The notes beneath the pieces are model-generated. The model did no database searches and was not told where the DNA came from. It was given only the letters and a program-made list of their open reading frames with translations. Shown here in pieces: positions 14,820 to 33,241 of a stretch of DNA of 35,084 nucleotides (positions are counted from its first letter, which is position 1; every line of letters begins with the position of its first letter). Source of the DNA: Lachnospiraceae bacterium (GTDB lineage: Bacteria > Bacillota > Clostridia > Lachnospirales > Lachnospiraceae); assembly GCA_022781925.1 (NCBI GenBank), contig JALESO010000029.1, positions 1 to 35,084 on the forward strand, read 5' to 3'. Both the position numbers and the translations under genes were made by a program.

Positions 14820-16211
14820 ATGGAGTTGACAAACATCCGGGAATTATTCCGGGACAAAGAAACGTATCTTGACAAAGAGATATCCATCGGCGGATGGGTT
14901 CGTTCCGTTCGCGGATCCAAGAAATTTGGATTTATCGTAGTAAATGACGGTACTTTTTTTGAACCGTTACAGGTCGTTTACGGTGACCATCTGGAGAATT
15001 TTGCGGAGATCTCAAAATTAAACGTAGGTGCTGCGATCATTGTAACCGGTAAGCTGGTAGCTACACCGGAAGCAAAACAGCCATTTGAGATCCAGGCAGA
15101 CAAAGTAGAGATCGAGGGCGCATCCGCACCGGATTATCCGCTGCAGAAAAAGCGTCACAGCTTTGAGTATCTGAGAACAATTTCTCATTTACGTCCGCGT
15201 ACCAATACTTTTGAGGCAGTGTTCCGTGTACGTTCTCTGATCGCATATGCAATCCACAAATTTTTCCAGGAGCGCGATTTCGTCTATGTACACACACCAC
15301 TGATCACAGGAAGTGACTGTGAGGGAGCCGGTGAAATGTTCCAGGTTACGACTATGGATCTGAACAATGTGCCGAAAAAAGACGACGGAAGCGTTGATTT
15401 CACACAGGATTTCTTCGGAAAACCAACCAATCTGACCGTAAGCGGACAGTTAAACGGTGAGACTTATGCCATGGCATTCAAGAACATCTACACCTTTGGA
15501 CCGACATTCCGTGCAGAAAACTCCAATACGACACGTCATGCAGCAGAGTTCTGGATGATCGAGCCGGAGATTGCTTTCGCAGATTTGAAAGATGATATGG
15601 TTCTTGCAGAGAGCATGCTGAAATATGTTATCCGCTACGTGCTGGAGCACGCACCGGAAGAGATGGAATTCTTCAACAAATTTGTAGACAAAGGATTACT
15701 GGATCGTCTGAACCACGTATTAAATTCCGATTTCGGACATGTTACTTATACCGAAGCCATTGAGATTCTTGAGAAAAACAATGACAAGTTTGATTATAAA
15801 GTATTCTGGGGTGCAGACCTGCAGACAGAGCATGAGCGTTACCTGACAGAGGAAATCTTCAAACGCCCGGTATTTGTAACCGATTATCCGAAGGAGATCA
15901 AAGCATTCTACATGAAACTCAACGAGGACGGCAAGACAGTAGCCGCTATGGACTGTCTGGTTCCGGGCATTGGAGAGATCATCGGCGGAAGCCAGCGTGA
16001 GGATGACTACGACAAGCTTCTGGCAAGAATGAAAGAACTCGGACTCAAAGAAGAAGACTATGACTTCTATCTGGATCTGAGAAAATACGGTTCTGCAAGA
16101 CATGCAGGATTTGGTCTGGGATTTGAGCGCTGCGTCATGTACCTGACAGGTATGGGAAATATCCGTGACGTAATCCCATTCCCAAGAACAGTTAATAACT
16201 GCGAGTTGTAA
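14820..16211 (+). CDS. asnS: Asparagine--tRNA ligase
   Basis: A class IIb aminoacyl-tRNA synthetase charging tRNA-Asn in the cytosol. An N-terminal OB-fold anticodon-binding domain ([24 protein letters not shown]) precedes the catalytic domain, with motif 2 ([24 protein letters not shown]) and motif 3 ([15 protein letters not shown]). The terminal [13 protein letters not shown] is typical of AsnRS rather than AspRS. I choose ATG 14820 (463 residues, the usual length), since GGGAGG lies just upstream; a TTG at 14805 would precede that site. The stop codon's last base is the first base of a structured element (16211-16359). Confidence 0.97.
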
Positions 16212-16359
16212 TCATTCAGAGCCAAGGCAATTTTCAGTAAATATGTGAGTCATGCTTGCATGAGTGAGCATATTTATGAAAATTTCTTTGGCGAGAAGCC
16301 AAACATGAGCAAAAGGAAAGCTTTGGAAAAGCGATTTTGCGAATGTGGCTCTGAATGAT
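16211..16359 (+). ncRNA. Structured 3'-UTR element, copy A (after asnS)
   Basis: A 149-bp element closed by a perfect 14-bp inverted repeat (16211-16224 with 16346-16359), starting on the last base of the asnS stop codon and followed by a terminator. Inside are a hairpin TTTGGC-GAGAA-GCCAAA near 16287-16303, a GCTTT/AAAGC hairpin near 16320-16332, and an inserted hairpin of about 37 nt near 16239-16275 absent from copy B. It matches copy B at 33130-33241 across the stems and the block GGCGAGAAGCCAA...CATGAGCAAA. A 17-codon reading frame, MSKRKALEKRFCECGSE, spans 16305-16358. It may be a structured RNA, a MITE-like insertion or a mini-gene. I do not recognise a named family. Confidence 0.6.
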
Positions 16360-16376
16360 AGAAAGTGTAAAAAATA

Positions 16377-16414
16377 AAAGGGGAGGTTTGGTCTGCACCG
16401 AACTTCCCCTTTAT
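16377..16414 (+). terminator. Terminator following asnS and element A
   Basis: A stem of about 16 bp with wobble pairs (16377-16392 with 16397-16412) around a CTGC loop. Only a short T-run trails it (CCCTTTAT), and it sits 17 bases before truA. It ends the asnS transcript and may attenuate read-through into truA. Confidence 0.78.
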
Positions 16415-16430
16415 CAAACAGGAAAAATAT

Positions 16431-17192
16431 ATGGCAAATTATAAAATAATCATTCAATACGATGGAACCCGCTACAAAGGCTGGCAGCGTCAGAAGACCA
16501 CGGACCAGACCATTCAGGGGAAGATCGAAGCGATTTTAAGCAGACAATATGGACGTACCATAGAGATTGACGGCTCCGGGCGCACGGATGCCGGTGTGCA
16601 TGCCCATGGACAGGTGGCGAATTTCCGGATTCCGGATGCCTGCTGTGAAGGAAAGGCACCGGAGGAGATGTGTGAGGAACTGAGGCAGATGTTTGTACAG
16701 TATCTGCCGGAAGATATTGCCGTGACTGAGGTGCGGGTGGCATCCGAACGTTTTCACAGCCGTCTGAATGTGGTGAAAAAGACTTATGTGTACCGCATCT
16801 GGGACGCAGATTATCCGAATGTATTTGAGCGTAAATACATGCTGCATGATAACCGGGCGATGGATGTGGAAGCCATGCAGCAGGCGGCGCAGTATCTGCT
16901 TGGCAAACATGATTTTGCGGCATTTTGCGGAAATGCCAGGATGAAAAAATCTACGGTGCGTACCATTCATGAGATCGACATCAGACGGATCGGTGAAGAA
17001 ATCCGTTTTACATATACCGGAAACGGATTTTTGCAGAATATGATCCGTATCGTGACAGGAACTCTGGTGGATGTGGGCTGCGGTGTCTATCCGCCGGAAC
17101 ATGTGGCAGAGATTCTGGAGTCAAAAGTACGGGCAGAGGCAGGGCCGACCATGCCGGCTCAGGGGCTGACCTTATGGGAAGTAACCTATTAA
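16431..17192 (+). CDS. truA: tRNA pseudouridine(38-40) synthase
   Basis: It isomerises uridines 38-40 of tRNA anticodon arms to pseudouridine. The 253 residues are of family length. The opening YKIIIQYDGTRYKGWQRQ and the catalytic aspartate D53 within GSGRTDAGVHAHGQVANF are diagnostic; the C-terminal FLQNMIRIVTGTLVDVG segment also matches. The ATG follows a CAGGAAA site directly after the terminator. recJ starts 29 bases downstream without a terminator, so they form one unit. Confidence 0.97.
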   Translation: MANYKIIIQYDGTRYKGWQRQKTTDQTIQGKIEAILSRQYGRTIEIDGSGRTDAGVHAHGQVANFRIPDACCEGKAPEEMCEELRQMFVQYLPEDIAVTEVRVASERFHSRLNVVKKTYVYRIWDADYPNVFERKYMLHDNRAMDVEAMQQAAQYLLGKHDFAAFCGNARMKKSTVRTIHEIDIRRIGEEIRFTYTGNGFLQNMIRIVTGTLVDVGCGVYPPEHVAEILESKVRAEAGPTMPAQGLTLWEVTY

Positions 17193-17220
17193 TAAAAATA
17201 ATAAAAACAGGAGTGACTAC

Positions 17221-18990
17221 GTGAAAGAAAAATGGGTAGTTTCAGCGAAAAAGGCTGATTTTCAGGCAATCGGACAGCACTTCGGCATTGACCAGGTACT
17301 GGCAAGGATCATGCGGAACCGTGGACTGACCGATCTGCAGGAAATGGATCTGTATCTGCATGGTACGAGGGCTGACCTTCATGATCCGCATCTTCTGAAG
17401 GATGTGGAACCGGCAGCGAGGATCCTGAAAGAAAAAATCGAAGAAAAGAAGCATATCCGAATCATCGGAGATTATGATATAGATGGGATCCAGTCAACCT
17501 ATATCCTGTACTGTGCCCTGCGGCGTCTAGATGCAGTGGTGGATTTCGTGATCCCGGACCGGATTCTGGACGGATATGGTCTGAATGAACATCTGGTGAC
17601 CCGGGCAAATGCAGACGGTGTTGATACAATCCTGACCTGTGACAACGGAATCTCCGCCATTGACCAGATCCATCTGGCAAAGACACTGGGAATGACGGTG
17701 GTGGTCACAGATCACCATGAAGTCCCTTTTACGGAAGTGGACGGTGTCCGCAGGGAAAAAGTCTGTGAGGCAGATGCGGTAGTGAATCCAAAGCAGCAGG
17801 AATGCCGTTATCCTTTTAAGAAACTGTGCGGAGCGGCGGTTGCCTTCAAACTGGTGCAGGTACTTTACGAAGTCTTTGGACTGGATGTGTCCGAGGCAGA
17901 CTGTTTTATCGAAAATGCCGGTTTTGCCACGGTGGGGGATGTCATGGACCTGCAGGGAGAGAATCGGATTCTGGTAAAGCTGGGGCTGGAGATGCTGAAC
18001 CATACGACAAATATCGGAATGAAGGCACTGATCCTTCAGAACAAACTGACGATGGGCGCCATCAAATCCCATGACATCGGATTTCGCATCGGGCCCTGCC
18101 TGAATGCCAGCGGCAGACTGGACACGGCACGGCTTTCTCTAAAACTGCTGCTGTGTGAGTCCGAGACGGAGGCGGCGGTTCTGGCAGAAGAGATCGTGGA
18201 ACTGAACGAGAGCCGGAAGCTGCTGACCATGCATGCGGTGGAGCAGGCAAAGGAGATTGCGCAGCAGGAGGAATATGTCAATGACCGTGTGCTGGTGATC
18301 TTTCTGCCGGACTGTCATGAAAGTCTGGCGGGGATCGTGGCAGGGCGGATCCGGGAGGCCTATCACCGGCCGACGCTGGTGATCACCCGGAGTGAACACG
18401 GGGCAAAAGGTTCCGGCCGTTCCATTGAAAGCTATTCCATGTATGAAGAACTGTGCAAATGCGAAGAATATCTGACACAGTTTGGCGGTCATCCGATGGC
18501 GGCTGGATTTTCCTTAAAGGAAGCGGATATCGATGTATTCCGTCGGAAATTAAATGCAGTGTGCACCCTGACGGAAGAGGATCTCAGACCGAAAGTGGTC
18601 ATCGATGTGCCGATGCCCATCAGTTACATTACGGAGCGGCTGGTCAATCAGCTGACCTGTCTGGAACCTTTTGGAAAAGGAAACGAGAAACCGGTGTTTG
18701 CGGACCGGAACCTGGTGATCGAGCGCCTGCGTATCTGCGGAAAAGAAGGCCGGGTATTTCAGATGAAGGTCAGAAATGCGGCAGGTGTTTCCATGGATGC
18801 GGTATATTTTGGGGATTCGGAGGATCTGCTGTTACCATTGGAAGAAAAATATGGTAAAGTAGTGGCACAGGATACACTGGCAGGCAGATGTATCCATGAA
18901 GCAGCCCTGCATTTTACCTATTATCCGGAAATGGATCATTATTATGAGACACCACGGATAAAATTACGGTTGACAGGGGTATCTGCCTGA
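17221..18990 (+). CDS. recJ: Single-stranded-DNA-specific exonuclease
   Basis: A 5'-3' ssDNA exonuclease of the DHH phosphoesterase superfamily, used in recombination and mismatch repair. The 589 residues show motif DYDID at 84-88, CDNGIS near 140, and D164-H165-H166 (TDHHE), all metal ligands; a DHHA1-type region follows (GKGSGRS-like GAKGSGRSIESYSMYEEL, then FGGHPMAAGF). A C-terminal OB-type domain follows near residue 450. The start is a GTG supported by CAGGAG. The DUF1002 gene follows 39 bases after the stop, suggesting cotranscription from truA onward. Confidence 0.95.
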   Translation: MKEKWVVSAKKADFQAIGQHFGIDQVLARIMRNRGLTDLQEMDLYLHGTRADLHDPHLLKDVEPAARILKEKIEEKKHIRIIGDYDIDGIQSTYILYCALRRLDAVVDFVIPDRILDGYGLNEHLVTRANADGVDTILTCDNGISAIDQIHLAKTLGMTVVVTDHHEVPFTEVDGVRREKVCEADAVVNPKQQECRYPFKKLCGAAVAFKLVQVLYEVFGLDVSEADCFIENAGFATVGDVMDLQGENRILVKLGLEMLNHTTNIGMKALILQNKLTMGAIKSHDIGFRIGPCLNASGRLDTARLSLKLLLCESETEAAVLAEEIVELNESRKLLTMHAVEQAKEIAQQEEYVNDRVLVIFLPDCHESLAGIVAGRIREAYHRPTLVITRSEHGAKGSGRSIESYSMYEELCKCEEYLTQFGGHPMAAGFSLKEADIDVFRRKLNAVCTLTEEDLRPKVVIDVPMPISYITERLVNQLTCLEPFGKGNEKPVFADRNLVIERLRICGKEGRVFQMKVRNAAGVSMDAVYFGDSEDLLLPLEEKYGKVVAQDTLAGRCIHEAALHFTYYPEMDHYYETPRIKLRLTGVSA

Positions 18991-19029
18991 AGGCATACTG
19001 GAAAGAAAGTGAATCGAAAGGAGCAGATC

Positions 19030-19956
19030 ATGAAAAAGGGATTTTTTCGAAGAGGGATTGCATTATTACTGGCAGCAGTGATGGTGGTTGGAATGAGTGT
19101 CAGCGCATTTGCCGCAGACAGCGATAATCCGACACAGGTTACGATCGCAGACGGAGATACGCCATACATTTCTTTTGGCGCGGATCTGCGTGCAGATGAA
19201 AAAGCGAAAGTATTGGAATTATTTGGTCTGACGGAAGCAGACCTGGAAAAATGTGATGTGAACACCGTGACCAATGCAGAGGAGCATCAGTATCTGGATG
19301 CGTATATCACAAATGATCACATTGGCAGCCGTGCCTTATCATCCGTAGCTGTGATGAAGGCAAAAAAGGGCAGCGGTATCACTGTGACCACAAAAAATAT
19401 CAACTACTGTACCACCAGCATGTATGAGAATGCGCTGGCAACGGCGGGGGTAACGGATGCAAATGTGGTAGTTGTCGGTCCCTTTGACATGTCCGGTACA
19501 GCGGCTCTGATCGGCGCAGTGAAAGCGTACTCCGGAATGACCGGCAAAGAGGTGGATACGGATGTCATCGACGGAGCCATCAACGAGATGGTGGTAACCG
19601 GTGAGATCGGAGATGAAACCGGCCAGACGGATGAAATCGCCGGTATGGTGGCTTATCTGAAGGATCAGGTGGGCGGCAAGGATCTCTCTGACAGTGAACT
19701 GACAGATGCTATTGATCAGGCATCGGAAAAATTTAATGTAAGTCTGACCCAGGATCAGATCGACCAGCTGAAAGAACTGCTGAAAAAACTGCAGGGGCTG
19801 GATCTGAACTGGAGCAACATCAGAGATCAGGCGGAAAATTTATATGGAAAATTAAAGGATATGGGTCTGAAGGTTGATACCTCAGCACTGACCCAGCAGG
19901 CACAGGGATTTTTTGCAAAACTGATTGCATTTATCAAGAGCCTGTTTAACCGTTAA
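19030..19956 (+). CDS. DUF1002-family secreted protein
   Basis: A 308-residue exported protein. The signal peptide runs to about residue 28 (ALLLAAVMVVGMSVSAFA, cleavage after AFA). The mature part shows DUF1002-type segments TPYISFGADLRADEKAKVLELFGL and YCTTSMYENALATAGVTDANVVVVGPF. The C-terminal third is helical, ends in a hydrophobic/basic FIAFIKSLFNR-like tail and has no lipobox. Function is unknown. I choose ATG 19030, 7-14 bases after an AAAGGAG site; the upstream GTG at 19009 precedes that site. The methyltransferase starts 10 bases after its stop. Confidence 0.88.
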   Translation: MKKGFFRRGIALLLAAVMVVGMSVSAFAADSDNPTQVTIADGDTPYISFGADLRADEKAKVLELFGLTEADLEKCDVNTVTNAEEHQYLDAYITNDHIGSRALSSVAVMKAKKGSGITVTTKNINYCTTSMYENALATAGVTDANVVVVGPFDMSGTAALIGAVKAYSGMTGKEVDTDVIDGAINEMVVTGEIGDETGQTDEIAGMVAYLKDQVGGKDLSDSELTDAIDQASEKFNVSLTQDQIDQLKELLKKLQGLDLNWSNIRDQAENLYGKLKDMGLKVDTSALTQQAQGFFAKLIAFIKSLFNR

Positions 19957-19966
19957 TGGAGGAAAC

Positions 19967-20719
19967 ATGGAAGCATATACAGAATTTGCACAGGTATACG
20001 AACAGTTCATGGACAATGTGCCTTATGAAGCGTGGTGCGAGGGCATCTGTAACATTTTGGCAGAGCATGGCATCTCAGATGGGCTGGTGTTGGATCTGGG
20101 CTGCGGCACCGGAACCATGACACGGTTGCTGCGGCAGAAAGGGTATGACATGATCGGTGTGGATGCTTCGGCAGAAATGCTGGAGATCGCCAGAAACCAT
20201 CCGGATGATGGCATCTTGTATCTGCAGCAGGATATGCGGGAGTTTGAACTGTACGGAACTGTGGCTGCGGTGGTGTGTATCTGCGATTCCCTGAACTATC
20301 TGCTGGAAGAGGAAGATCTGGCGGAGGTATTTTCCCTGGTGCATAACTATCTGGATCAGAACGGCGTATTTATTTTTGACATGAATACTATTCACAAATA
20401 CCGCGACCTGATCGGAGATTCCACGATCTGTGAAAACAGGGAAGAGGGAAGCTTTATCTGGGAAAATTATTTTGACGAGGACAGCAGCATCAATGAATAT
20501 GCACTGACGCTGTTTGTAAAACAGGAAAATGGCCTGTTTGCCCGGTATGAGGAGTTTCATTATCAGAAAGCCTATGAACTGAAGCAGGTGGCGGCACTTC
20601 TGGAGCAGGCAGGGCTGACACTGAAAGCAGTCTGCGCCGAGGGCGGTACTGAGCCTGCGGATGAAAACTGTGAACGGGCTTATTTTGTGGCAGTGAGAAC
20701 CCAGCCACACATATTTTAA
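19967..20719 (+). CDS. SAM-dependent class I methyltransferase
   Basis: A 250-residue methyltransferase with the Rossmann motif I VLDLGCGTGTMTRLL, motif II acid D in IGVDASAEMLEIAR, and QQDMREFEL plus a CICDSLNYLLEEEDL segment as motif IV. It resembles the clostridial subgroup found between recJ-type genes and hslO. The substrate is unknown. The start at ATG 19967 is chosen from GGAGG 6 bases upstream; a longer reading to 19925 would overlap the previous gene. After it, 20720-20842 contains a 6-bp TGCTTT/AAAGCA hairpin but no clear terminator. Confidence 0.88.
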   Translation: MEAYTEFAQVYEQFMDNVPYEAWCEGICNILAEHGISDGLVLDLGCGTGTMTRLLRQKGYDMIGVDASAEMLEIARNHPDDGILYLQQDMREFELYGTVAAVVCICDSLNYLLEEEDLAEVFSLVHNYLDQNGVFIFDMNTIHKYRDLIGDSTICENREEGSFIWENYFDEDSSINEYALTLFVKQENGLFARYEEFHYQKAYELKQVAALLEQAGLTLKAVCAEGGTEPADENCERAYFVAVRTQPHIF

Positions 20720-20842
20720 ACGGATCGTGCAGGTGGATTGCGAATAGCCGCCTGACCAAAATTAAGAAATGAAATTTCATGCTTTCATGATGCAAAGCAG
20801 GAAGCAGTGGAAATTTGACGATACTTTAGAAAAGGAATGAGA

Positions 20843-21718
20843 ATGATGGAAGATTATATTGTACGTGCAACTGCCGCGAACAGTTCGATTCGCGCATTTG
20901 CCATGACTTCAAAAGGAATTGTGGAGGAGGCCCGGCAGCGGCACAATACCAGTCCGGTCGTTACAGCGGCGCTCGGCCGTCTGCTCACCGGAGGCGCCAT
21001 GATGGGTGTCATGATGAAAGGGGACAAAGATCTGCTGACAGTACAGATCCAGTCCGGCGGTCCGATGAAGGGAATGACAGTGACAGCAGATTCCCAGGGA
21101 CATGTCAAAGGATATCCGGTGGTTGCGGATGTCATGCTGCCGCCGAACAAACAGCACAAACTGGATGTAGGCGGAGCCGTAGGTGTCGGCATGATGCGTG
21201 TCATCAAAGATATGGGACTGAAAGAGCCGTATGTGGGAACCACCGTGCTGCAGACCAGCGAAATCGCAGAAGATCTGACCTATTATTTTGCAACGTCTGA
21301 GCAGGTACCGTCTTCTGTGGGCCTTGGAGTTCTGATGAACAAGGACAATACGGTGCGTCAGGCCGGCGGATTTATCATCCAGCTGATGCCCTTTACCGAT
21401 GAGAAGATCATTGATGCACTGGAGAAAAAACTGTCTGAGATCACATCCGTCACAAATCTGCTGGAGCAGGGCTATACACCGGAGAGTATGCTGGAGTATA
21501 TTCTGGGGGATTTCGGTGTGGAGATCACGGACAAGATCCCGGCTTCTTTCTATTGCAACTGTTCCAAGGACCGTGTGAAAAAGGCGATCATCAGCATCGG
21601 AAAGAAAGACCTGAATGAAATGATCGCAGATGGCAAACCCATCGAGGTAAAATGCCACTTCTGTAATACGGCCTATACATTCAGCGTCGAAGAATTAAAG
21701 GAGATCGTGAAGAAATGA
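20843..21718 (+). CDS. hslO: Redox-regulated chaperone Hsp33
   Basis: A cytosolic holdase activated by oxidation. The 291 residues include the N-terminal substrate-binding domain (DYIVRATAANSSIRAFA, QSGGPMKGMTVTAD) and the C-terminal zinc switch C238-x-C240 ... C271-x2-C274, with 30 residues between pairs, as expected for the CxC-CxxC family. ATG 20843 lies 6 bases after AAAGGA; ATG 20837 would abut it and 20846 is also possible. The stop overlaps the nadE start (ATGA), so the two are coupled. Confidence 0.96.
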   Translation: MMEDYIVRATAANSSIRAFAMTSKGIVEEARQRHNTSPVVTAALGRLLTGGAMMGVMMKGDKDLLTVQIQSGGPMKGMTVTADSQGHVKGYPVVADVMLPPNKQHKLDVGGAVGVGMMRVIKDMGLKEPYVGTTVLQTSEIAEDLTYYFATSEQVPSSVGLGVLMNKDNTVRQAGGFIIQLMPFTDEKIIDALEKKLSEITSVTNLLEQGYTPESMLEYILGDFGVEITDKIPASFYCNCSKDRVKKAIISIGKKDLNEMIADGKPIEVKCHFCNTAYTFSVEELKEIVKK

Positions 21719-23706
21719 GACAGGGATTTATCAAAGTAGCGGCTCTGACACCGAAAGTTACCGTGGCGGATACCCAGGCAAACCGGGAGGAAATCTGTCG
21801 TCTGATGGATGAAGCGGAAGCAAAGGGCGCCAAGATACTGGTATTTCCGGAACTGTGCATTACCGGTTATACCTGTGGCGATCTGTTTTACCAGCAGGTG
21901 CTTCTGCGGGAGGCGAAAAAAGAACTGCTTGCTATTGCAAACTATACCCAGCGCAAGGACTATCTGGCTTTTGTAGGACTTCCGCTGGAATACAATGGAA
22001 AACTTTATAATGTGGCAGCAGCCGTGGCACAGGGAAAAGTGCTGGGTCTGGTGCCGAAGACCCACATCCCGAATTATAATGAATTTTATGAGCGTAGACA
22101 TTTTGCTCCGGGGATGAAACAGCCGGTGCCGGTAGCGTTGGATGAGGATACCGTTGTGCCCATGGGAACCAGAGTATTGTTCCAGTGCCGCCAGATGCCG
22201 GAACTGAAGATCGGTGCGGAAATCTGTGAGGATGTGTGGGCACCGAACCCACCGGGAGTGGAGCATGCCCTGGCAGGTGCGACCCTGCTGGTCAATCTTT
22301 CTGCCAGTGATGAGACAACCGGCAAAGATATGTACCGTAAGAGTCTGGTGACCGGTCAGTCCGGCCGGCTGATCTGCGGCTATGTATACTGCAGCGCCGG
22401 AGACGGGGAATCCACTCAGGATGTGGTATATTCCGGTCATAACCTGATCGCGGAGAACGGAACCCTGCTGGCTGAGTCCAGACGTTTCTGTAACGAAAGT
22501 ATCTATACAGAACTGGACATTGCCCGTCTGAATGAGGAACGCCGCCGGATGAGCACTTTTATGACTTCTGACGAGTCCTACCTTAACGTCGAGTTCAGCT
22601 TAAAAGAAGAGATGACAGAGCTGACCCGTTTTGTAGATTCTGCTCCTTTCGTGCCGGGAAACAAGGCCGATCGTGAGAAACGCTGTGAAGAGATTTTCAT
22701 GATCCAGGCCATGGGACTGAAAAAACGTCTGGAACATACCCATGCAGCTACTGCAGTGGTGGGTATTTCCGGTGGACTGGATTCCACACTGGCCCTGCTT
22801 GTCATGGTAAAAGCCTTTGATCTGATCGGAAAAGATCACAAAGATATTGTGGCTGTGACCATGCCGGGATTCGGAACCACAGACCGTACCTATGACAATG
22901 CTGTGAGCCTGATCAAGTCTCTGGGTGCTACGTTCCGGGAGGTCAGCATCGTGGATTCTGTCCGGGTGCATTTCAAGGATATCGGGCAGAATGAGGCAGT
23001 GCATGATGTGACTTACGAAAACGGACAGGCCAGAGAGCGTACCCAGATCCTGATGGATATCGCAAACAAGAGCAATGGTATGGTCATCGGAACCGGGGAT
23101 ATGTCCGAACTTGCCCTGGGATGGGCGACCTACAACGGAGATCACATGTCCATGTACGGTGTCAACGCTTCCGTGCCGAAGACACTGGTGCGTCATCTGG
23201 TGCGTTATTATGCGGACACCTGTGGGGATGAAACGCTGCAGAACGTGCTGTACGATGTGCTGGATACACCGGTTAGCCCGGAACTTCTGCCGCCGGAGGA
23301 TGGCAAGATCTCACAGAAAACAGAGGATATCGTGGGACCATACGAATTGCACGATTTCTTCCTGTATTACATTCTGCGTTTCGGATGTACACCGAAGAAG
23401 ATTTATCGTCTGGCAAAATATGCTTTTGCCGGAACTTATGATACAGAAACGATACAGAAATGGCTGAAAACTTTCTATCGCAGATTTTTCAGTCAGCAGT
23501 TCAAGCGTTCCTGTCTGCCGGATGGACCGAAAGTAGGTACGGTGGCGGTATCTCCACGCGGAGATCTGCGTATGCCGTCCGATGCCAGCGCACGTATCTG
23601 GATGGAGGAACTGGAACATCTGGAAGAGGAAGATCAACCGAAGCCACAGGGTATTCTGGGCGGAAGCTGGGAAGAATTTGCAGCACGGATGAAAGCCGGA
23701 GAGTAA
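21715..23706 (+). CDS. nadE: Glutamine-dependent NAD+ synthetase
   Basis: It amidates deamido-NAD to NAD+ using glutamine and ATP. The 663 residues contain an N-terminal nitrilase/glutaminase domain (FPELCITGYTCGD with Glu; KTHIPNYNEFYE with Lys; EICEDVWAPN with the catalytic Cys) and a C-terminal ammonia-dependent synthetase (ATP loop VGISGGLDSTLALLV, GTGDMSELALGW). The length matches two-domain synthetases. It overlaps hslO by four bases. Its stop is one base from that of the leftward gene at 23708, and no terminator is visible between them. Confidence 0.96.
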   Translation: MRQGFIKVAALTPKVTVADTQANREEICRLMDEAEAKGAKILVFPELCITGYTCGDLFYQQVLLREAKKELLAIANYTQRKDYLAFVGLPLEYNGKLYNVAAAVAQGKVLGLVPKTHIPNYNEFYERRHFAPGMKQPVPVALDEDTVVPMGTRVLFQCRQMPELKIGAEICEDVWAPNPPGVEHALAGATLLVNLSASDETTGKDMYRKSLVTGQSGRLICGYVYCSAGDGESTQDVVYSGHNLIAENGTLLAESRRFCNESIYTELDIARLNEERRRMSTFMTSDESYLNVEFSLKEEMTELTRFVDSAPFVPGNKADREKRCEEIFMIQAMGLKKRLEHTHAATAVVGISGGLDSTLALLVMVKAFDLIGKDHKDIVAVTMPGFGTTDRTYDNAVSLIKSLGATFREVSIVDSVRVHFKDIGQNEAVHDVTYENGQARERTQILMDIANKSNGMVIGTGDMSELALGWATYNGDHMSMYGVNASVPKTLVRHLVRYYADTCGDETLQNVLYDVLDTPVSPELLPPEDGKISQKTEDIVGPYELHDFFLYYILRFGCTPKKIYRLAKYAFAGTYDTETIQKWLKTFYRRFFSQQFKRSCLPDGPKVGTVAVSPRGDLRMPSDASARIWMEELEHLEEEDQPKPQGILGGSWEEFAARMKAGE

Positions 23707-23707
23707 G

Positions 23708-25616: not shown

Positions 25617-25693
25617 ACGATTCTATTCCCCCTTAAAAATGATTCACAGATATGTGATAAATGATAAGCTTCAAGTACATCAGATGTACCAGT

Positions 25694-25739
25694 ATTCAAG
25701 TCGAACGCACGAGAGACTCGGTGCGTGATTCTGGTCAGC
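25694..25739. repeat. Second, inverted copy of the MITE-like element core
   Basis: These 46 bases match the reverse complement of 24514-24559 at 42 positions. The match fades on both sides, although both copies share a TTCAAG block just outside. A GTACATC/GATGTAC palindrome lies immediately upstream (about 25673-25689) and a related AGTACATCCGATGTGAT block lies near 25811. It sits in the 355-base gap between the amidase and fabH, upstream of both. Confidence 0.65.
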
Positions 25740-25898
25740 ATGAGCATCATAGGAATTTTGGTACACTGAGTCGCTACATGTAAGTAATATATGATGCAGT
25801 TTTCAAAATAGTACATCCGATGTGATATCTCGCATCTGATATGGTCTCTGGCGGACTGCAGCGAGGTTCAGAAGAATAAAAATAGAAATGGTTCAGTG

Positions 25899-25927
25899 TT
25901 GACAATAAGTATGTTTTTCTGTATACT
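25899..25927 (+). promoter_or_regulatory. Sigma-A promoter of fabH
   Basis: A consensus -35 TTGACA (25899-25904), exactly 17 bases, then -10 TATACT (25922-25927). Transcription would start near 25934, about 38 nt before fabH, just ahead of a FabT-like palindrome. Confidence 0.85.
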
Positions 25928-25942
25928 TTGAAAATAGAATGT

Positions 25943-25955
25943 TTTGATAATCAAA
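25943..25955. promoter_or_regulatory. FabT-like operator before fabH
   Basis: TTTGAT-A-ATCAAA is a perfect palindrome located about 10-22 bases after the predicted transcription start. It matches the known core of the MarR-family fatty-acid repressor FabT in streptococci (TTTGATTATCAAA) with one central change. It suggests fabH is repressed when long-chain acyl-ACP is abundant. The regulator gene is not in this window. Confidence 0.65.
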
Positions 25956-25971
25956 CTAAATGGAGGGATAG

Positions 25972-26940
25972 ATGAGAGCACAGATTATAGGAACCGGCAG
26001 CTGTCTGCCGGAAAAGATAGTAACAAATGATTTTCTTTCCACTATCGTGGATACCAGTGATGAGTGGATCAGCAGCAGAACCGGTATCCGTCAGCGTCAT
26101 ATTGCAGTGGAAGAGACTACGGCATCCATGTCCACGGAGGCTGGAAGAAGAGCTTTGGAGTCTGCAGGGGTAAAAGCAGAAGATCTGGATCTGATCATTG
26201 TGGCAACCTGTACACCGGATACGCTGGTTCCGAATACGGCATGTCTGGTACAGAGCGAGCTTGGCGCTGTGAATGCAGTTGCTTTTGATATCAGTGCTGC
26301 ATGCTCAGGTTTTGTATTTGCACTGAATATGGTGGATGCCTATATGCAGGCAGGGGTACACAAGACCGCTCTTGTCATCGGTGCAGAGACGCTGTCACGT
26401 ATTGTGGACTGGAGTGACCGTTCCACCTGCGTACTGTTTGCCGATGGAGCCGGTGCGGCAGTTGTCCGTGCGGCAGAACACGGTGTGATCGCATCTACCC
26501 AGAGAAGCGACGGAACCCGTGGCGGTGCGATCTATGTAAAAAACAGAGAAAATTATAATCCTTTTGTGACGGAACAAAAACCAATGGATTATCTGTATAT
26601 GGATGGCGGAGAAGTGTTCAAATTTGCGGTGAAAAAAGTACCGCAGTCCATTATGCAGACACTGGAAGCTGCAAACCTGACCACAGAGGACATCGACTGG
26701 TATCTGTTCCATCAGGCAAATGCCAGAATCACGGCAACCATTGCGAAACGTTTGAAAGTGCCGAATGAGAAAATCCCGATGAATGTGGACAAATGCGGAA
26801 ACACCTCCGCAGCCAGTGTGGCAATCCTTCTGGATGAGGTCAATCGTAAGGGAATGCTGAAAAAAGGCGATAAGCTGATGCTGGCCGGATTTGGTTCCGG
26901 ACTGACCTGGGGAACCATGGCAATCGAGTGGGGAATTTAA
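25972..26940 (+). CDS. fabH: Beta-ketoacyl-ACP synthase III
   Basis: It condenses acetyl- or branched acyl-CoA with malonyl-ACP to start type II fatty-acid synthesis. The 322 residues hold the catalytic triad C111 (SAACSGF), H247 (LFHQANARI) and N277 (CGNTSAAS), and the TSDEWISSRTGIRQRHI segment of the CoA site. The ATG follows TGGAGGG. It has a strong promoter and a FabT-like operator. In many Firmicutes fabH opens a cluster with acpP, fabK, fabD and fabG; here it stands alone, ending at a hairpin and facing an Rpn nuclease gene. Confidence 0.97.
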   Translation: MRAQIIGTGSCLPEKIVTNDFLSTIVDTSDEWISSRTGIRQRHIAVEETTASMSTEAGRRALESAGVKAEDLDLIIVATCTPDTLVPNTACLVQSELGAVNAVAFDISAACSGFVFALNMVDAYMQAGVHKTALVIGAETLSRIVDWSDRSTCVLFADGAGAAVVRAAEHGVIASTQRSDGTRGGAIYVKNRENYNPFVTEQKPMDYLYMDGGEVFKFAVKKVPQSIMQTLEAANLTTEDIDWYLFHQANARITATIAKRLKVPNEKIPMNVDKCGNTSAASVAILLDEVNRKGMLKKGDKLMLAGFGSGLTWGTMAIEWGI

Positions 26941-26956
26941 ATTCTTGTGTTGTAAA

Positions 26957-27027
26957 AACGCCAATCATCAATCTTACTTCTGCTACTATTAATTCACTGG
27001 CGGAGGAAAGATTGCCTGACTGGCGTT
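26957..27027. terminator. Imperfect hairpin between fabH and the convergent Rpn gene
   Basis: AACGCCA (26957-26963) pairs with TGGCGTT (27021-27027), and CAATCTT pairs with AAGATTG further in, leaving a loop of about 30 nt. CTTTAG follows on the plus strand and an A-run precedes it for the minus strand, so it may terminate both genes weakly. Confidence 0.5.
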
Positions 27028-27044
27028 CTTTAGTTCCCAGAAAA

Positions 27045-27983
27045 TTAGTTTTCGGAATTCTTTTTGTAATCGTCGACAGAAATATTAGCGGCATGGCAGG
27101 CCTGCTCGATGGAAAAACCAAAATCTTTGATTAAATTTTTCACTGTTGCAACGGCATTTGCTAATTTCCCTCTTTCTTCAATCATATCAAGTGCTTTACT
27201 TCTCATGATTACTTTCCCTCCTTCTACTGTTTCGGTCATTTTACTCCATCTTTCATCTACATAATAACTAATTGCGTCGGCAATTAACTTATCTATCGCT
27301 GTCATACCAGTAAAAATTTTTGTTAGTTCTGCCTCGTCGTCTTTGTAACGGATACTTTGTAAAAGTTTGCCAAAATCAGATTGAAATTTGTCAAAATTAT
27401 CAATTTTATTTGGTTCAATCAGATTGATCTTATAATCTGGAACACATTCTAAAATTTTTTCATCAACATCTTCCGAAAACATATCGTGTAGAGATTTTGC
27501 ACCTGTCCACTCGTCTGTTCCATAGTAAATTACAAGTGTAATGACCGGTATCAGGTTATCTGTGTATTTCCAGCCAGATAAAAATTCTGTTCGGGTCATT
27601 TTGGGGGGATTGCCATTTTTTCTCTGTTTGCGATAGTCTGCAGCAATATCTTCTGCTTGTTTTGTGTAACGAATTGCATCGTATAAAAATGAGCGTAATG
27701 GCATGGCTGTATGTATTTCTGTCTGATTTTCTACTCCGAGCAATATAAAATAATTTTTCCCATCCGTTTTAATAAGTGCTTTCTTTAATACATCTCTGTA
27801 TTTGTTAAAAAATGTATCGGTTCCCGTTTCTGGATCATCCAATTCAATCTCAGCAGGATCAATTTCTGAAAGATTAGTCGAGTCTATAAGTGTTTCCCCA
27901 CCAAATAATCCAGCATTAAATGCATCCGCAAAATATGTGTTATTACACATTAATTTTTTCCCAATAGCGTCTGATTTTCCCAT
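27045..27983 (-). CDS. Rpn-family recombination-promoting nuclease / putative transposase
   Basis: A 312-residue protein of the PD-(D/E)XK-type Rpn family. The nuclease core is in the first half: an Asp-bearing segment FFNKYRDVLKKALI, then FILLGVENQTEIHTAMPLRSF, whose E-x-Q follows the family pattern. The LIPVITLVIYYGTDEWTG segment is also typical. The C-terminal tail (FGFSIEQACHAANISVDDY) looks like a small helix-turn-helix-type tail. Escherichia coli RpnA is a calcium-stimulated DNA endonuclease; such genes are scattered, often multi-copy, and suspected in recombination or phage defence. The ATG follows AAAGGAGG. Its coding sequence is AT-richer than its neighbours, suggesting transfer. A broken relative is at 3312-4381. 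Confidence 0.87.
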   Translation of the reverse strand: MGKSDAIGKKLMCNNTYFADAFNAGLFGGETLIDSTNLSEIDPAEIELDDPETGTDTFFNKYRDVLKKALIKTDGKNYFILLGVENQTEIHTAMPLRSFLYDAIRYTKQAEDIAADYRKQRKNGNPPKMTRTEFLSGWKYTDNLIPVITLVIYYGTDEWTGAKSLHDMFSEDVDEKILECVPDYKINLIEPNKIDNFDKFQSDFGKLLQSIRYKDDEAELTKIFTGMTAIDKLIADAISYYVDERWSKMTETVEGGKVIMRSKALDMIEERGKLANAVATVKNLIKDFGFSIEQACHAANISVDDYKKNSEN

Positions 27984-28443
27984 ATTTTTTCCTCCTTGTA
28001 AAAAATTGAGAACAATCTGCGTTTGAGGTTATTCCTGCCATCACGCAAAAAATTCTCATGTAAATTTTCCATCATGTTTGAATCTCTCCGCCGATACGGC
28101 ATGAATAAAATTATGAGATATGCATTGCAGATTTTTGAGTTTGCAGAAAATGCTTGTGATAATTATATAGAACATGTAATTTTCTGAAAATGTGTTTAGA
28201 AATATACAAATCTGACATTTTGATGTTATCGTCAGTATAAGCTGAGAATTTGTTGTATGTCAACCATATTTTTTTTATGAAAAATCTCTTTGTACAATAT
28301 GACGAAAGGGATAAGAATGCTCTAAATCTATATATTTTCTGAATTTTGTGAGTTTAATGAGCACCGATGGAACTCGTTGTGTCATAAAGTTGGGGGTGAT
28401 TTTTGTTTATAATGCCGATATTGTCGCTGGACAGAAAATCATG
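27984..28443. other. AT-rich intergenic gap without recognised genes
   Basis: About 460 bases between the leftward Rpn gene and the rightward lipoprotein promoter. It presumably contains the Rpn promoter. No reading frame, RNA gene or strong repeat was found. Base composition is distinctly AT-rich. Confidence 0.6.
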
Positions 28444-28473
28444 TTGTTGTATCGTGGGAGTGTATGATATACT
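28444..28473 (+). promoter_or_regulatory. Candidate extended -10 promoter for the broken lipoprotein gene
   Basis: TTGTTG (28444-28449), an 18-base spacer, then TGA-TATACT (28465-28473), an extended -10. The start would fall near 28480, about 45 nt before the ATG at 28525. Confidence 0.5.
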
Positions 28474-28524
28474 GTTTATATGGATAAATGAAAAAATAGT
28501 TGTCGTATGATAAGGGGGGATTTT

Positions 28525-29207
28525 ATGAAACGAAAGAGCATAAAATATATTGGCCTGGTACTTCTTTGCGTGGCGGGATGTATGTTTGTGACAGCGTGTG
28601 GCCAGGATAAGGATCATACGGCTAAGAAGGATGAAAGCGTTATCAGCAGTGAAGCAGAAACCTCGGATGCGGAAAAGAGTACAGATCCGGCGGATTATGA
28701 AACAGGCACCAGGGATCATTACCTTGCTGTATGGGCACAGGAGAAGGGGTTGTCTTATGCGGCAGCAGAAAGTCAGGAACGTCTGGAAACTGACGAGATT
28801 GCACTGGGGGAAGATGAAGCGATCGGATATGCGACAGTGGACAAGGAATGTGGTTCTGTTTCGAATGGAAACGGTTGTAATGAAAAACAGCATTTTCTGC
28901 GGATGTCCGTTATATTTACCAGAAGACGGATGGCACGATCACAGCGATTGACAATCTGGCAAATGTAAAAGTATATCTCCCGGAAGTTCCGGATGCAACG
29001 GCACAGCTGTCAGATCCAAATATTTATCAGGAAGAGCATGGTTACCGCATCAGTGTGACAGGAACGTTAAGTTTTACTCTGGAAAATGCAGATGTGACGC
29101 AGGGTGGAGAATTTGCCTCTGTGGAAACTTCTGGAAATCAGAGCGACGTTATCACAACGGCGAAAACATTTGCGATTTTATTTCAGCAGAGCGATGTACA
29201 GAAATAA
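28525..29207 (+). pseudogene. Uncharacterised lipoprotein gene broken by a one-base deletion
   Basis: ATG 28525 follows an AAGGGGGGA ribosome site. The N-terminus is a signal peptide with a lipobox (FVTACGQ). The first frame reads well to NGNGCNEK and then degenerates to a stop at 28968. Adding one A to the five-A run at 28883-28887 continues the protein as TAFSADVRYIYQKTDGTITA and on to a stop at 29205-29207, giving 227 residues. The rescued C-terminal half (SVTGTLSFTLENADVTQGG) is beta-rich. I recognise no family. Either the gene is inactivated, the locus varies by slippage, or the sequence lacks a base. Confidence 0.75.
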
Positions 29208-29336
29208 TATATAGGATAAAAATTGTAAAATCATGTGGACCTTTTTAGTGTGCACATGGTTTGAAAAGAGGATACCAGATATATGATGCATATTGAGAGT
29301 AGATAGCATTTTTTATCTATTACATAGCGTAAATCA

Positions 29337-29402
29337 GAGGGCGCTGGAAATTTTTTCTCTGAACGCGATTGTTAGTGGAGGAGACAAAATTTCAGCGCCC
29401 TC
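29337..29402. repeat. 66-bp long imperfect hairpin upstream of the SleC-like gene
   Basis: A left arm of 23 bases (29337-29359, beginning GAGGGCGCTG) pairs with 29381-29402 (ending CAGCGCCCTC) with one or two mismatches, leaving a loop of about 21 nt. No T-run follows (GTTATAC), so it is not a normal terminator. It occupies the middle of the 293-base gap after the broken lipoprotein; an imperfect CATGTG/CACATG hairpin near 29233-29262 may terminate that gene. Confidence 0.6.
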
Positions 29403-29500
29403 GTTATACATAAAATGAAAAACATAAAATCAAAAGAAACAGAGACATTTTTCCGGCATCACCGCATAGATTAGTGTAAACATGATTTTGTGAGGGTTTT

Positions 29501-30772
29501 ATGCCGGACAAAGGGTTACGCGTACAACAAACAGAAAATGTGGACAGAGGAAGGCTGCAGGTCAATGTGACATCGACATTGGGACTGCAGCCTGTTGTGA
29601 ATGCACGGGTGAGCATTGCATACACAGGGGAGAGTCAGCGCCCCTTGGAAGAACTGCAGACAGATTCCTCCGGTCAGACGGAGGCAGTGACGCTGGATAC
29701 ACCGCCGGTGGAGTATTCCCAGGAGCCGAATCAGCCGCAGCCTTTTTCGGAATATACGGTGACCGTGCAGGCAGATGGCTATCGTCCTGTGGAGGTGTCC
29801 GCAATCGATGTGTTTCCGAATGAGACGGCTCTGCAGGAGATACGGATGGAGCCGCTGGATATCTCCCAGGGCGAGGGAGAGGAAAATATTGTGGTTCCGC
29901 CGAACACGCTGTGGGGAGATTTTCCACCGAAGATTCCGGAGGAAGAGGTAAAACCGGTGAATGAATCCGGGGAGATCGTTTTAAGCCGCGTGGTCATCCC
30001 GGAGTATGTGATCGTCCATGACGGGCCGCCGACGGACACCCGGGCGCAGGATTACTATGTGCGTTACCGGGATTATATCAAAAATGTGGCATCCAGTGAG
30101 ATCTATTCCACCTGGCCGGAGGCCACGCTGCGGGCCAATATTCTGGCGATCATGTCCTTTGCTTTAAATCGTGTATACACGGAGTGGTACAGAGGAAAAG
30201 GATATGACTTTACCATTACATCTTCCACTGCCTACGATCAGAAATGGTCTTTCGGCCGCACGATCTTCAGCAATATTTCCCGGATCGTGGACGAAATTTT
30301 CAATAATTATCTGTCCCGGCCGAATGTGCAGCAGCCGATCCTGACCCAGTATTGTGATGGGAAAAATGTGACATGCAGTGGATGGATGACCCAGTGGGGC
30401 TCCCGTTATCTGGGAGATCAGGGATACAGTCCCATCGAAATCCTGCGTTATTATTACGGCAGCAGTATTTACATCAATTCTGCGGAGGAGATTGCGGGGA
30501 TTCCGTCTTCCTGGCCGGGCACAGATCTGGCGGTGGGGTCTTCCGGCACAAAGGTGCGGCAGATGCAGCAGCAGCTTGCCCGGATTTCCCAGGCATATTC
30601 GGCGATTCCGACCATTACCGTAGACGGCATTTTCGGGGAGCGCACCCGAGAGGCCGTGGAAGCATTTCAGAGGATCTTTGATCTGCCAGTGTCGGGTGTG
30701 GTGGATTTTCCGACCTGGTACAAAATTTCCCAGATTTATGTGGGTGTGACGCGGATTGCGGAACTGAGTTAA
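29501..30772 (+). CDS. SleC-like spore cortex-lytic / peptidoglycan-binding protein
   Basis: A 423-residue protein with no signal peptide. The first 125 residues are beta-rich and carboxypeptidase-regulatory-like (RLQVNVTSTLGLQPVVNARV, YTVTVQADGYRPVEV). The middle is SpoIID/SleC-like, with the candidate catalytic glutamate E207 in WPEATLRANILAIMSFALN and the TSSTAYDQKWSFGRTIF segment. The C-terminus (about 345-415) is a PG_binding_1 repeat (GSSGTKVRQMQQQL, DGIFGERTREAVEAFQ). Clostridial SleC has this order and is a cortex-lytic enzyme activated by Csp proteases; no csp gene is seen here. Several paralogues per genome are common in this group, so its exact role (cortex lysis or spore-coat function) is uncertain. 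Confidence 0.8.
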   Translation: MPDKGLRVQQTENVDRGRLQVNVTSTLGLQPVVNARVSIAYTGESQRPLEELQTDSSGQTEAVTLDTPPVEYSQEPNQPQPFSEYTVTVQADGYRPVEVSAIDVFPNETALQEIRMEPLDISQGEGEENIVVPPNTLWGDFPPKIPEEEVKPVNESGEIVLSRVVIPEYVIVHDGPPTDTRAQDYYVRYRDYIKNVASSEIYSTWPEATLRANILAIMSFALNRVYTEWYRGKGYDFTITSSTAYDQKWSFGRTIFSNISRIVDEIFNNYLSRPNVQQPILTQYCDGKNVTCSGWMTQWGSRYLGDQGYSPIEILRYYYGSSIYINSAEEIAGIPSSWPGTDLAVGSSGTKVRQMQQQLARISQAYSAIPTITVDGIFGERTREAVEAFQRIFDLPVSGVVDFPTWYKISQIYVGVTRIAELS

Positions 30773-30857
30773 ATAATATAGTTTATCTATTGTTATGTAA
30801 GCAGAATCATTCCCTGAATAATATGTGATGAGTAAACTGTAAATAAAAGGTGTAAAT

Positions 30858-30894
30858 AAAATGCCGGAGAGATCATAATTCCTCTGGCATTTTT
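30858..30894 (+). terminator. Intrinsic terminator after the SleC-like gene
   Basis: AAAATGCCGGAGAG (30858-30871) pairs with CCTCTGGCATTTT (30881-30893) with wobbles around a 9-nt loop, followed by TCTTT. Confidence 0.88.
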
Positions 30895-30954
30895 CTTTGA
30901 TTTCATGTAGAATAGGGCATAAACGACAGAATATATAGAAAGATGAGAGGATAA

Positions 30955-32052
30955 ATGATGGAAGAGAAAAAAAACATTATGGATTATGACACTGTTTCCT
31001 TAGATGATGAAAACAGCGCCGTAGTTATTATCGATCAGACAAAATTACCGGGAACCACAGAGATCATTGCATTAAAGACCGCACAGGAGATCTGGGACGC
31101 AATCTATCTGCTTCAGGTGCGTGGCGCTCCGGCCATCGGTGTGGCAGCAGCTTACGGTATCTATGTACTGGCAAAAGGTATTGACACAGACAATTATGAC
31201 GAGTTTTATGCAGAGTTCAAGAAACAGAAAGAATATCTGGATTCTTCCCGTCCGACCGCAGTCAACCTTTCCTGGGCATTAAACCGTATGGAGCAGGTGG
31301 TATTAAACAATGCAGACAAGTCCGTTGCTGAGATCAAACAGCTTCTGAAAGAGGAGTCCATCGAGATCCAGGACGAGGATATCCGTGTGTGCAAAGCCAT
31401 CGGTGAGTATGGTCTGACTCTGGTAAAACCGGGTGACGGTATTCTGACACACTGCAACGCAGGAAAACTTGCAACAAGCAAATACGGTACAGCGACAGCT
31501 CCGATCTATCTGGGACAGGAGCGCGGCTACAATTTCCGTGTATTTGCAGATGAGACCAGACCGTTGCTTCAGGGCGCACGTCTGACTGCTTTCGAGCTTC
31601 AGTCATCCGGCGTTGACGTAACACTGATCTGTGATAACATGTCCGCAACTGTTATGAAAAACGGCTGGGTAGATGCAATTTTCGTAGGCTGTGACCGTGT
31701 GGCAGCAAACGGTGATACCGCAAACAAGATCGGTACTTCCGTAGTTGCAGCAGTTGCAAAACAGTACAATGTACCGATGTATATCGCAGCTCCGACTTCC
31801 ACCATCGATATGAACACACCGACCGGTGATCAGATCAAGATCGAGCAGAGAAAACCGGAAGAAGTGACAGAGATGTGGTACAAAGAGCGCATGGCTCCGG
31901 AAGGTGTCAAAGTATTCAATCCGGCATTTGACGTGACAGATCATGAGTTGATCGCAGGTATCGTAACGGAGTTCGGTATCGCGCGTCCGCCTTATACAGA
32001 ATCTTTCAAAGAGATTTTTGCAAAAAAAGAGGCAGCGCAGAAGAATAAATAA
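30955..32052 (+). CDS. mtnA: S-methyl-5-thioribose-1-phosphate isomerase
   Basis: It converts 5-methylthioribose-1-phosphate to 5-methylthioribulose-1-phosphate in methionine salvage; related enzymes also act on 5-deoxyribose-1-phosphate. The 365 residues show [13 protein letters not shown], the catalytic cysteine C167 in [10 protein letters not shown] and aspartate D247 in [10 protein letters not shown], then [15 protein letters not shown]. The start is ATG 30955 after GAGAGGA; a second Met follows at once. No other salvage genes (mtnK, mtnB, mtnN) are adjacent, so the partners must lie elsewhere or the enzyme handles deoxyribose by-products of radical-SAM reactions. Confidence 0.95.
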
Positions 32053-32114
32053 GAAAAACAGACTGTGTTGTATAAAAAACCTGTAATCCTAGTAAAATAT
32101 AGGAAAATAATCGC

Positions 32115-32143
32115 TTCACTTTTTCCATAGAGTGGGGTATAAT
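32115..32143 (+). promoter_or_regulatory. Candidate promoter of the mrp-type gene
   Basis: TTCACT (32115-32120), a 17-base spacer and TATAAT (32138-32143). The start near 32150 would leave a long leader of about 130 nt before the ATG at 32282, in which I recognise no riboswitch. Confidence 0.55.
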
Positions 32144-32281
32144 AAACAGTAATGGTTCAGCGGACATGCCCGCGTTTTTGAGGACAGAATCAGTGTCAGA
32201 CCGGGCAGTATGATCTGCATCACAGAACAGATCGGTGCTGGATCATTACAAGTTTTAACGGAAATCATAGGAGGTAGCATT

Positions 32282-33130
32282 ATGGCAGACAGTGCATGCA
32301 GCAGCTGCAGCAGTGCGGGAAGCTGTTCTTCCGAGAGCTGTGAAGGATGTCCGAGCAGCAAGCAGCCGCAGAGCTTTCAGGAAAAATTAAATGAGTATTC
32401 ATCTGTAAAAAAAGTGATCGGTGTTGTCAGTGGTAAAGGTGGTGTCGGAAAATCATTCGTAACCGCATCTTTGGCAACCGCAATGCGTAAAAAAGGATAC
32501 GAAGTAGGTATTCTGGATGCAGATATCACAGGACCGTCCATTCCGAAAATGTTCGGTGTACACGGACCGGCTATGGGCAGCGAGATGGGAATCTTACCGA
32601 TTGCGGCAGAGGACGGCACAAAGATCATGTCCATCAACTTACTGATGGAGGATGAGGAAGCTCCGGTTATCTGGAGAGGCCCGGTCATCGCAGGAACCGT
32701 AAAACAGTTCTGGAGCGATGTAGTCTGGGGGGATCTTGATTATTTATTTGTGGACATGCCGCCAGGAACCGGTGACGTTCCGCTGACTGTTTTCCAGTCT
32801 CTTCCGGTAGATGGCATTGTGATCGTGACATCCCCGCAGGAACTGGTTCAGATGATCGTAAAGAAAGCCTACAACATGGCTGGTATGATGGATATTCCGG
32901 TACTCGGTGTGGTAGAGAATTACAGCTATCTGAAATGTCCGGACTGCGGAAAAGAGATCAAACTGTTCGGTGAGAGCCACATTGATGAAGTCGCTTCTGA
33001 GCTGGCAATGCAGGTTCTTGGCAAAATGCCGCTGGATCCGGCTTACGCAGAACTGGCAGACCAGGGATTATTCTACAAAGCAGATAATCCATATCTGGAA
33101 GATGCCGTAAAGAAAATTGAAAATATGTAG
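32282..33130 (+). CDS. Mrp/NBP35-family Fe-S cluster carrier ATPase
   Basis: A 282-residue cytosolic P-loop ATPase that binds and transfers Fe-S clusters. The deviant Walker A loop KGGVGKS lies at residues 52-58, followed by GILDADITGPSIPKMFGVHG and VDMPPGTGDVPLTVFQSLP. The C-terminal cluster-ligand pair is C219-x2-C222 (KCPDCGKE). The N-terminus is unusual: five cysteines at 6, 9, 15, 20 and 23 in a Ser/Gly-rich segment, recalling the extra N-terminal cluster of NBP35. I choose ATG 32282, after TAGGAGGT; a 24-residue upstream extension to 32210 has no ribosome site. The last base of its stop is the first base of structured element B. Confidence 0.93.
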   Translation: MADSACSSCSSAGSCSSESCEGCPSSKQPQSFQEKLNEYSSVKKVIGVVSGKGGVGKSFVTASLATAMRKKGYEVGILDADITGPSIPKMFGVHGPAMGSEMGILPIAAEDGTKIMSINLLMEDEEAPVIWRGPVIAGTVKQFWSDVVWGDLDYLFVDMPPGTGDVPLTVFQSLPVDGIVIVTSPQELVQMIVKKAYNMAGMMDIPVLGVVENYSYLKCPDCGKEIKLFGESHIDEVASELAMQVLGKMPLDPAYAELADQGLFYKADNPYLEDAVKKIENM

Positions 33131-33241
33131 TAACTATTCAAAGCCAAGCAGTTTTTCCAGTAAATCTATTTGGCGAGAAGCCAACATGAGCAAACGGAAA
33201 GCCTGCAAAGGCGAGTTCGCAAATGGACTCTGAATAGTTAC
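33130..33241 (+). ncRNA. Structured 3'-UTR element, copy B (after mrp)
   Basis: A 112-bp relative of 16211-16359, starting on the last base of the mrp stop codon. The terminal stem pairs 33130-33140 with 33231-33241 perfectly and then continues with mismatches. Two outer pairs are swapped relative to copy A (C-G for T-A and the reverse), and the inner hairpin is GCCT-GCAA-AGGC where copy A has GCTTT-GGA-AAAGC, so pairing is kept while sequence changes. The hairpin TTGGC-GAGAA-GCCAA is shared. A 15-codon frame, MSKRKACKGEFANGL, spans 33186-33233. A terminator follows 26 bases on. Confidence 0.6.

Follow-up and report, generated by a model that had tools for sequence, protein, structure and literature searches.

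Downstream of two putative genes, asnS and mrp, a contig of a Lachnospiraceae bacterium (GenBank assembly GCA_022781925.1, contig JALESO010000029.1) carries two related structured elements, here called A and B, which raise the question of whether they are RNAs that the host maintains at the 3' ends of its transcripts or elements that move as DNA. The window analysed here is the whole stretch of 35,084 nucleotides, read on the forward strand; the gene names come from an earlier note on this DNA and are compatible with the reading frames. That note had allowed for both a dispersed structured RNA of the 3' untranslated region (UTR) and an element resembling a miniature inverted-repeat transposable element (MITE) with a preference for stop codons. 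We find that A and B are very probably non-autonomous transposons (MITEs) with IS66-type ends, which duplicate 8 bp of their target on insertion and for which a transposase would be supplied in trans. The MITE-like interpretation is borne out by the inverted repeats, the target duplications, the large number of copies and the orthologous sites that are empty or differently occupied. The same ends on IS66 transposons and changes that conserve structure were also observed.

Both elements are real, B with exactly the span the note had given it and A with a wider one (16208 to about 16363 in place of 16211-16359; Table 1), and the closing stem, the TTGGC-GAGAA-GCCAA hairpin and a variable hairpin were found in each. 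Neither B (112 bp) nor A (156 bp) contains a transposase gene. The closing stem is at the same time the terminal inverted repeat GTAACTATTCAG...CTGAATAGTTAC; A starts with GTAATCATTCAG, and the ends of B read GTAACTATTCA...TGAATAGTTAC. Compared with dinucleotide shuffles, the folds are unusually stable (z -8.7 for A and -7.6 for B), none of 200 shuffles being as good. A hairpin of about 37 nt that had been regarded as an extra of A proved to be present in all 11 aligned members of the subfamily, and it is B that does without it.

For 37 copies, most of which have the terminal inverted repeats GTAAYTATTCAG/CTGAATARTTAC, we compared the 8 bases outside the GTAA...TTAC ends on either side, taking expectations from shuffled flanks. 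All 8 positions agree in 5 copies (0.17 expected), including B, in which AATATGTA on either side is a perfect target duplication; at least 7 agree in 12 copies (0.77 expected) and at least 6 in 17 (2.53 expected). Orthologous sites tell of presence and absence (G, C and L numbers are our handles for genomes, contigs and loci, G000 being the genome that contains the window). The mrp site is empty in G001, and the asnS-truA site is empty in G002 and occupied in G001 by a different element, a member of the Clostridiales-1 RNA family of Rfam (RF01699), directly after the stop codon. Clear empty sites were also found for L313, L328 and L330 among 12 that were aligned, several of them not interpretable, and for the RF01699 copies L165, L178, L163b and L171 among 16 sites, the others sharing the element or holding partial or other forms. 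Mobility of the elements is well supported.

The empty sites also bear on the intrinsic terminators that the note placed after each element. Strongly folding hairpins do follow A and B; a strict terminator scan, however, found no terminator 3' of either. Because hairpins resembling these recur, by eye, at the element-free orthologous sites, they belong to the host and their proximity is incidental, and a terminator as a component of the element was rejected on both grounds. Elsewhere, insertions at L300-L302, L313 and L338 lie directly 3' of the T-runs of what look like terminators, and two follow T-box-like leaders (by eye).

The ends themselves suggest which transposase might be involved. 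Viral contigs hold 57 stretches with GTAAYTATTCAGARCC, at 3 of which an inverted partner occurs with up to 3 mismatches. In one of these loci (L388) the partners bound 1796 bp flanked by a perfect 8-bp duplication, CTATGGCA, and a protein of 423 amino acids matches IS66 transposase models (PF03050, 135.8 bits; NF033517, 254.8 bits). Another, L389, was set aside, its two frames not being transposase-like by eye. A search of plasmids with the L388 protein returned 50 records, all below 60% identity, among them the annotated ISGst1, which has the ends GTAACTATTCA and TGAATAGTTAC and an 8-bp duplication, AAAAGAAC, and which agrees with B in all of the outer 11 bases at either end. Ends of the A/B type with 8-bp duplications are thus carried by two IS66-family transposons, ISGst1 and L388; A and B differ from such insertion sequences in having a structured interior in place of a transposase. 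An IS66-family transposase of the ISGst1 kind would, we infer, act in trans at the GTAAYTATTCAG...CTGAATARTTAC ends, and its insertions would create the 8-bp duplication. Other bacterial MITEs, such as NEMIS, RUP and ERIC, are likewise about 100-200 bp long, intergenic and numerous, with inverted repeats. These families make TA duplications, whereas the elements described here have a branched RNA-like interior and a conserved core, and their duplications, where present, are of 8 or 5 bp.

Several observations weigh against this assignment. In excerpts from PMC11946415, IS66 ends begin GTAAGCG and are flanked by 8-bp repeats; the ends here and in ISGst1 begin GTAACTA, so that the agreement is limited to GTAA and 8 bp. 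In 363 fetched loci (~0.8 Mb) the L388 transposase has no relative but the ISGst1 record; this search did not extend to the whole host genome. The flanks of A agree at 2 of 8 positions, which leaves no recognisable duplication, and 20 of the 37 copies agree at fewer than 6. Moreover, a conserved core and covariation, described below, suggest a role for the interior as RNA or single-stranded DNA, which is not required of a plain MITE. With the L388 protein, the viral contigs yielded its own contig only and the phage collection nothing.

Duplications and gene content bear equally on a different mobiliser, a Y1 transposase of the IS200/IS605 or REP type, to which hairpin-rich, dispersed, intergenic elements in a genome with 5 PF01797 matches might be attributed. 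PF01797 was found in 8 of 20 same-genus genomes and is missing from the other 12, including the two richest in copies (G007 with 60 and G015 with 56), and its presence does not correlate with the copies. Elements mobilised by Y1 enzymes are not known to make a target duplication, whereas 8-bp and 5-bp duplications are observed here. This explanation is largely refuted, and we consider it very improbable.

The note had proposed a covariance model search of this genome and its relatives, and further copies were indeed found. The model, R1, was built from 11 subfamily members, including A and a third close copy in the same genome (on C18) and leaving B out; it scores A at 165.6 bits (by construction) and B at 90.4 bits, and at E<=0.001 it has matches in 12 of the 20 same-genus genomes. 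Among these matches are several related subfamilies whose core differs, and one match (G007:C213) is shared with RF01699. The exact hairpin-plus-core pattern of A and B occurs in 9 stretches from three named metagenome-assembled genomes (Roseburia sp. RGIG7456 with 6, Lachnospiraceae RGIG4572 with 2 and another Lachnospiraceae with 1). Outside cellular genomes, the sequence of A has no match among plasmids and matches two unannotated faecal phage records at 73-75% identity, one of which was inspected; the core pattern occurs in 10 stretches of viral contigs, of which the 5 read are all chance-like, and R1 found nothing in 17 of the 67 viral loci.

In the 11-member alignment, which contains A and not B, 22 of 48 base pairs have changed on both sides. 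By stem, these amount to 12 of the 15 pairs of the long hairpin, 4 of the 5 of the inner hairpin, 5 of the 14 of the closing stem and 1 of the 9 of the core stem. The covariation score of 0.338 was reached by none of 500 shuffles (0.141, sd 0.014) and compares with 0.028-0.077 for slid controls. A single genome contributes 6 of the 11 members, and the structure comes from this very alignment; both circumstances inflate such controls. Base pairing is conserved over sequence, as had been claimed from the two copies, although the TTGGC/GCCAA hairpin, invariant in all 11 members (0 of 5 pairs changed), is uninformative for or against pairing. Caution is needed in going from here to RNA function. 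Because the closing stem doubles as a transposon end, from which covariation can also arise, and because rewriting of stems may take place in the DNA itself, covariation alone is no proof of it.

One such route, compatible with a MITE, is that the compensatory changes reflect palindrome rewriting by template switching and not selection on RNA. In 7 of 121 RF01699 copies the closing stem extends by at least 5 nt into site-specific flanks (about 0.9 expected), and in 3 by 8 nt (0.02 expected), and at L166 and L193 gene sequence makes up the left arm, with no counterpart of the right arm in element-free relatives; only a minority of copies is concerned, however, and the conserved unpaired bases of the core are left unexplained, so that as a general account of the stem changes we think it possible though doubtful. 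At L166, L193, L185, L145 and L105, the right flank is the reverse complement of upstream host sequence over 6-8 nt. We considered and dropped the idea that each insertion copies its closing-stem sequence from the flanking host DNA, the clearest case (L313 against G000) being ambiguous because the supposed host stretch is perhaps a leftover end.

The note recognised no named family, which holds for B and needs qualification for A. At Rfam gathering thresholds there is no match in the window; at relaxed thresholds A aligns with the whole RF01699 model at 29.3 bits (E 8.7e-5), below the cut-off of 48, B has no match, and R1 for its part matches the RF01699 copy at G007:C213 (E 2.5e-4). A appears to have in common with Clostridiales-1 RNA a closing stem, a long hairpin with a GCUUGC loop and the ATGAGCA...TGCGAATG core; A and B both lack its right-hand GGATTG...CAATCC hairpin. 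Within the core stem, in A and in RF01699 copies, we note by eye a symmetric GA/GA internal loop (U-GA-GC / GC-GA-A), a possible site of tandem sheared G-A pairs. The genome under study has 3 RF01699 matches above the cut-off and 7 weaker ones at E<=0.01, of which A is one. At E<=0.01, 19 of the 20 same-genus genomes have between 1 and 60 copies each (414 in total; none in G019) and none of 14 control genomes has any; at E<=10, matches appear in 4 of the 14 controls too. In the wider family, with the best 9 copies per genome counted, a match at E<=1e-4 occurs in 156 of 299 genomes, 130 of which have one above the cut-off.

A large group of RF01699 elements has ends and a duplication length unlike those of A and B. 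Its ends read TGATRCC..., the unit continues past the closing stem into a tail whose last bases are ATCA or ATCT, and exactly at these limits a duplication of 5 bp or more is present in 12 of 120 copies (0.85 expected). Around the closing stem alone, direct repeats are in excess (35 versus 14.7 at 6 nt or longer, n=121) and out of register, the 5-bp signal emerging once the tail is added. Different ends with a 5-bp duplication point to a transposase other than that of the 8-bp GTAA type. In viral contigs the TGATRCC ends have 2 matches, both chance-like, with no gene search made there, and the ends of the TGAAAGTG group have none. If the shared core is homologous, as the cross-matches and the common ATGAGCA...TGCGAATG bases suggest, the RNA-like module would have changed transposon ends, and the RF01699 family may travel as transposon cargo instead of being a bacterial RNA gene of the usual kind. 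A family that Rfam lists as a 'small RNA' and that has no assigned role would then join the mobile elements, which would explain its many copies. The Clostridiales-1 motif is tabulated as probably RNA and probably not cis-regulatory (Weinberg 2010, PMC2864571), and the main text of that paper has no passage on a transposon, mobile or multi-copy nature of the motif. Of the literature retrieved for Clostridiales-1 or RF01699, this paper alone concerns the motif by title, and for MITEs in Lachnospiraceae or Roseburia, related RNA terms and IS66 MITEs, titles and the beginnings of abstracts reveal nothing on these elements.

Both elements had been said to begin on the last base of a stop codon, which is true of B; in A the TAA lies inside the GTAA tip. 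Since this tip holds the TAA of asnS and completes the TAG of mrp, it accounts for the fusion of both elements to stop codons, and by placing a stop at the junction it makes insertion at a gene end cheap. Each element sits between a stop codon and a native terminator and would presumably be transcribed within the 3' UTR, with an RNA-like interior whose fold is akin to that of Clostridiales-1 RNA. Most likely the host merely tolerates such an RNA. Processing by RNase III, known for other bacterial MITEs, is possible by analogy.

Whether a stop-codon preference exists depends on the set examined. Of 30 R1 copies, 6, with A and B among them, have a long frame that stops no more than 15 nt from their left end, and 7 have one on the other strand that stops equally close to their right end; with stops about equal at both ends, an orientation-specific 3'-UTR role is unsupported there. 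The 121 RF01699 copies differ from these: 49 have, on their own strand, a frame of 100 codons or more whose stop is no more than 12 nt from their left end (background 2-9 at shifted positions), and 12 have a frame on the opposite strand that stops at their right end (background 4-9). The peak is narrow: the two 10-nt bins at the left end hold 49 stops, with 0-7 in every other bin, and on the opposite strand 9 fall in the bin at the right end, with 0-5 elsewhere. Judged by their flanks, the 49 represent about 42 distinct sites, the same site recurring in related genomes for L101/L104, L112/L147, L122/L162/L185, L148/L163b, L165/L168 and L174/L178. In 15 of the 49 the stop is the TGA with which the element itself begins, and in 10 a TGA comes immediately before the element. 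In this wider set the preference is real, and either targeting or selection could produce it; such tight sense-strand docking is unusual for a MITE and calls for a mechanism. At the sites of L166 and L189, relatives (L226, L227, L242-L244) keep just the first 20-odd bases, which by eye look like a stop codon and a ribosome-binding site before the next ATG.

The 49 sense-strand stops among the RF01699 copies, together with neighbours that are co-directional on both sides for 60 of the 121 copies and antisense on both sides for 20 (41 mixed or unknown), are what one would expect of a structured 3'-UTR RNA that the host encodes for regulation or mRNA stabilisation, that has spread by duplication and that selection on its structure maintains, as are the 22 covarying pairs; target duplications, empty and differently occupied orthologous sites and the absence of orientation bias in the R1 set speak against it and make it unlikely. 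For the RF01699 family we put forward, tentatively and with the balance somewhat against it, that Clostridiales-1 RNA is a portable structured-RNA module on different transposon ends (IS66-type with 8 bp in A/B-like elements, TGATRCC with 5 bp in the large group). The latter would dock sense-wise on stop codons and provide the stop itself and, at some sites, the next gene's ribosome-binding site, and the RNA would act at mRNA 3' ends, making insertion harmless or useful and being selected as such.

Table 1. Coordinates of elements A and B, their parts and the adjoining host hairpins in the window.
Feature	Position	Strand	Remarks
Copy A, whole element	16208..16363	+	right end degenerate; no target duplication left (2/8)
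A, left terminal inverted repeat GTAATCATTCAGAGCC	16208..16223	+	includes stop TAA of upstream gene (16209-16211)
A, hairpin TTGGC-GAGAA-GCCAA	16288..16302	+	
A, core ATGAGCA...TGCGAATG	16305..16345	+	also in RF01699 copies
A, right end GCTCTGAATGATAGAA	16348..16363	+	tip degenerate
Terminator-like host hairpin 3' of A, outside element	16377..16412	+	z -6.5; similar one at empty site of G002; strict terminator scan negative
B, left target duplication AATATGTA	33122..33129	.	strand not applicable
Copy B, whole element	33130..33241	+	without the long hairpin; first G completes upstream stop TAG (33128-33130)
B, hairpin TTGGC-GAGAA-GCCAA	33170..33184	+	
B, right target duplication AATATGTA	33242..33249	.	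strand not applicable
Terminator-like host hairpin 3' of B, outside element	33266..33327	+	z -7.0; similar one at empty site of G001; strict terminator scan negative

Other forms and families were seen along with these copies. L255 (in G015) and L057 (in G014, after asnS) are short palindromes made of closing stem and long hairpin only, apparently derived from the full element, and L163, L142, L299 and L162 are tandem or partly tandem copies. A further family in the same genome as A and B, represented by L011 (G000:C14:110764-110917), has the ends ATTACAGTTCAC / GTGAACTGTAAT with ATATAATG on both sides, again 8 bp.

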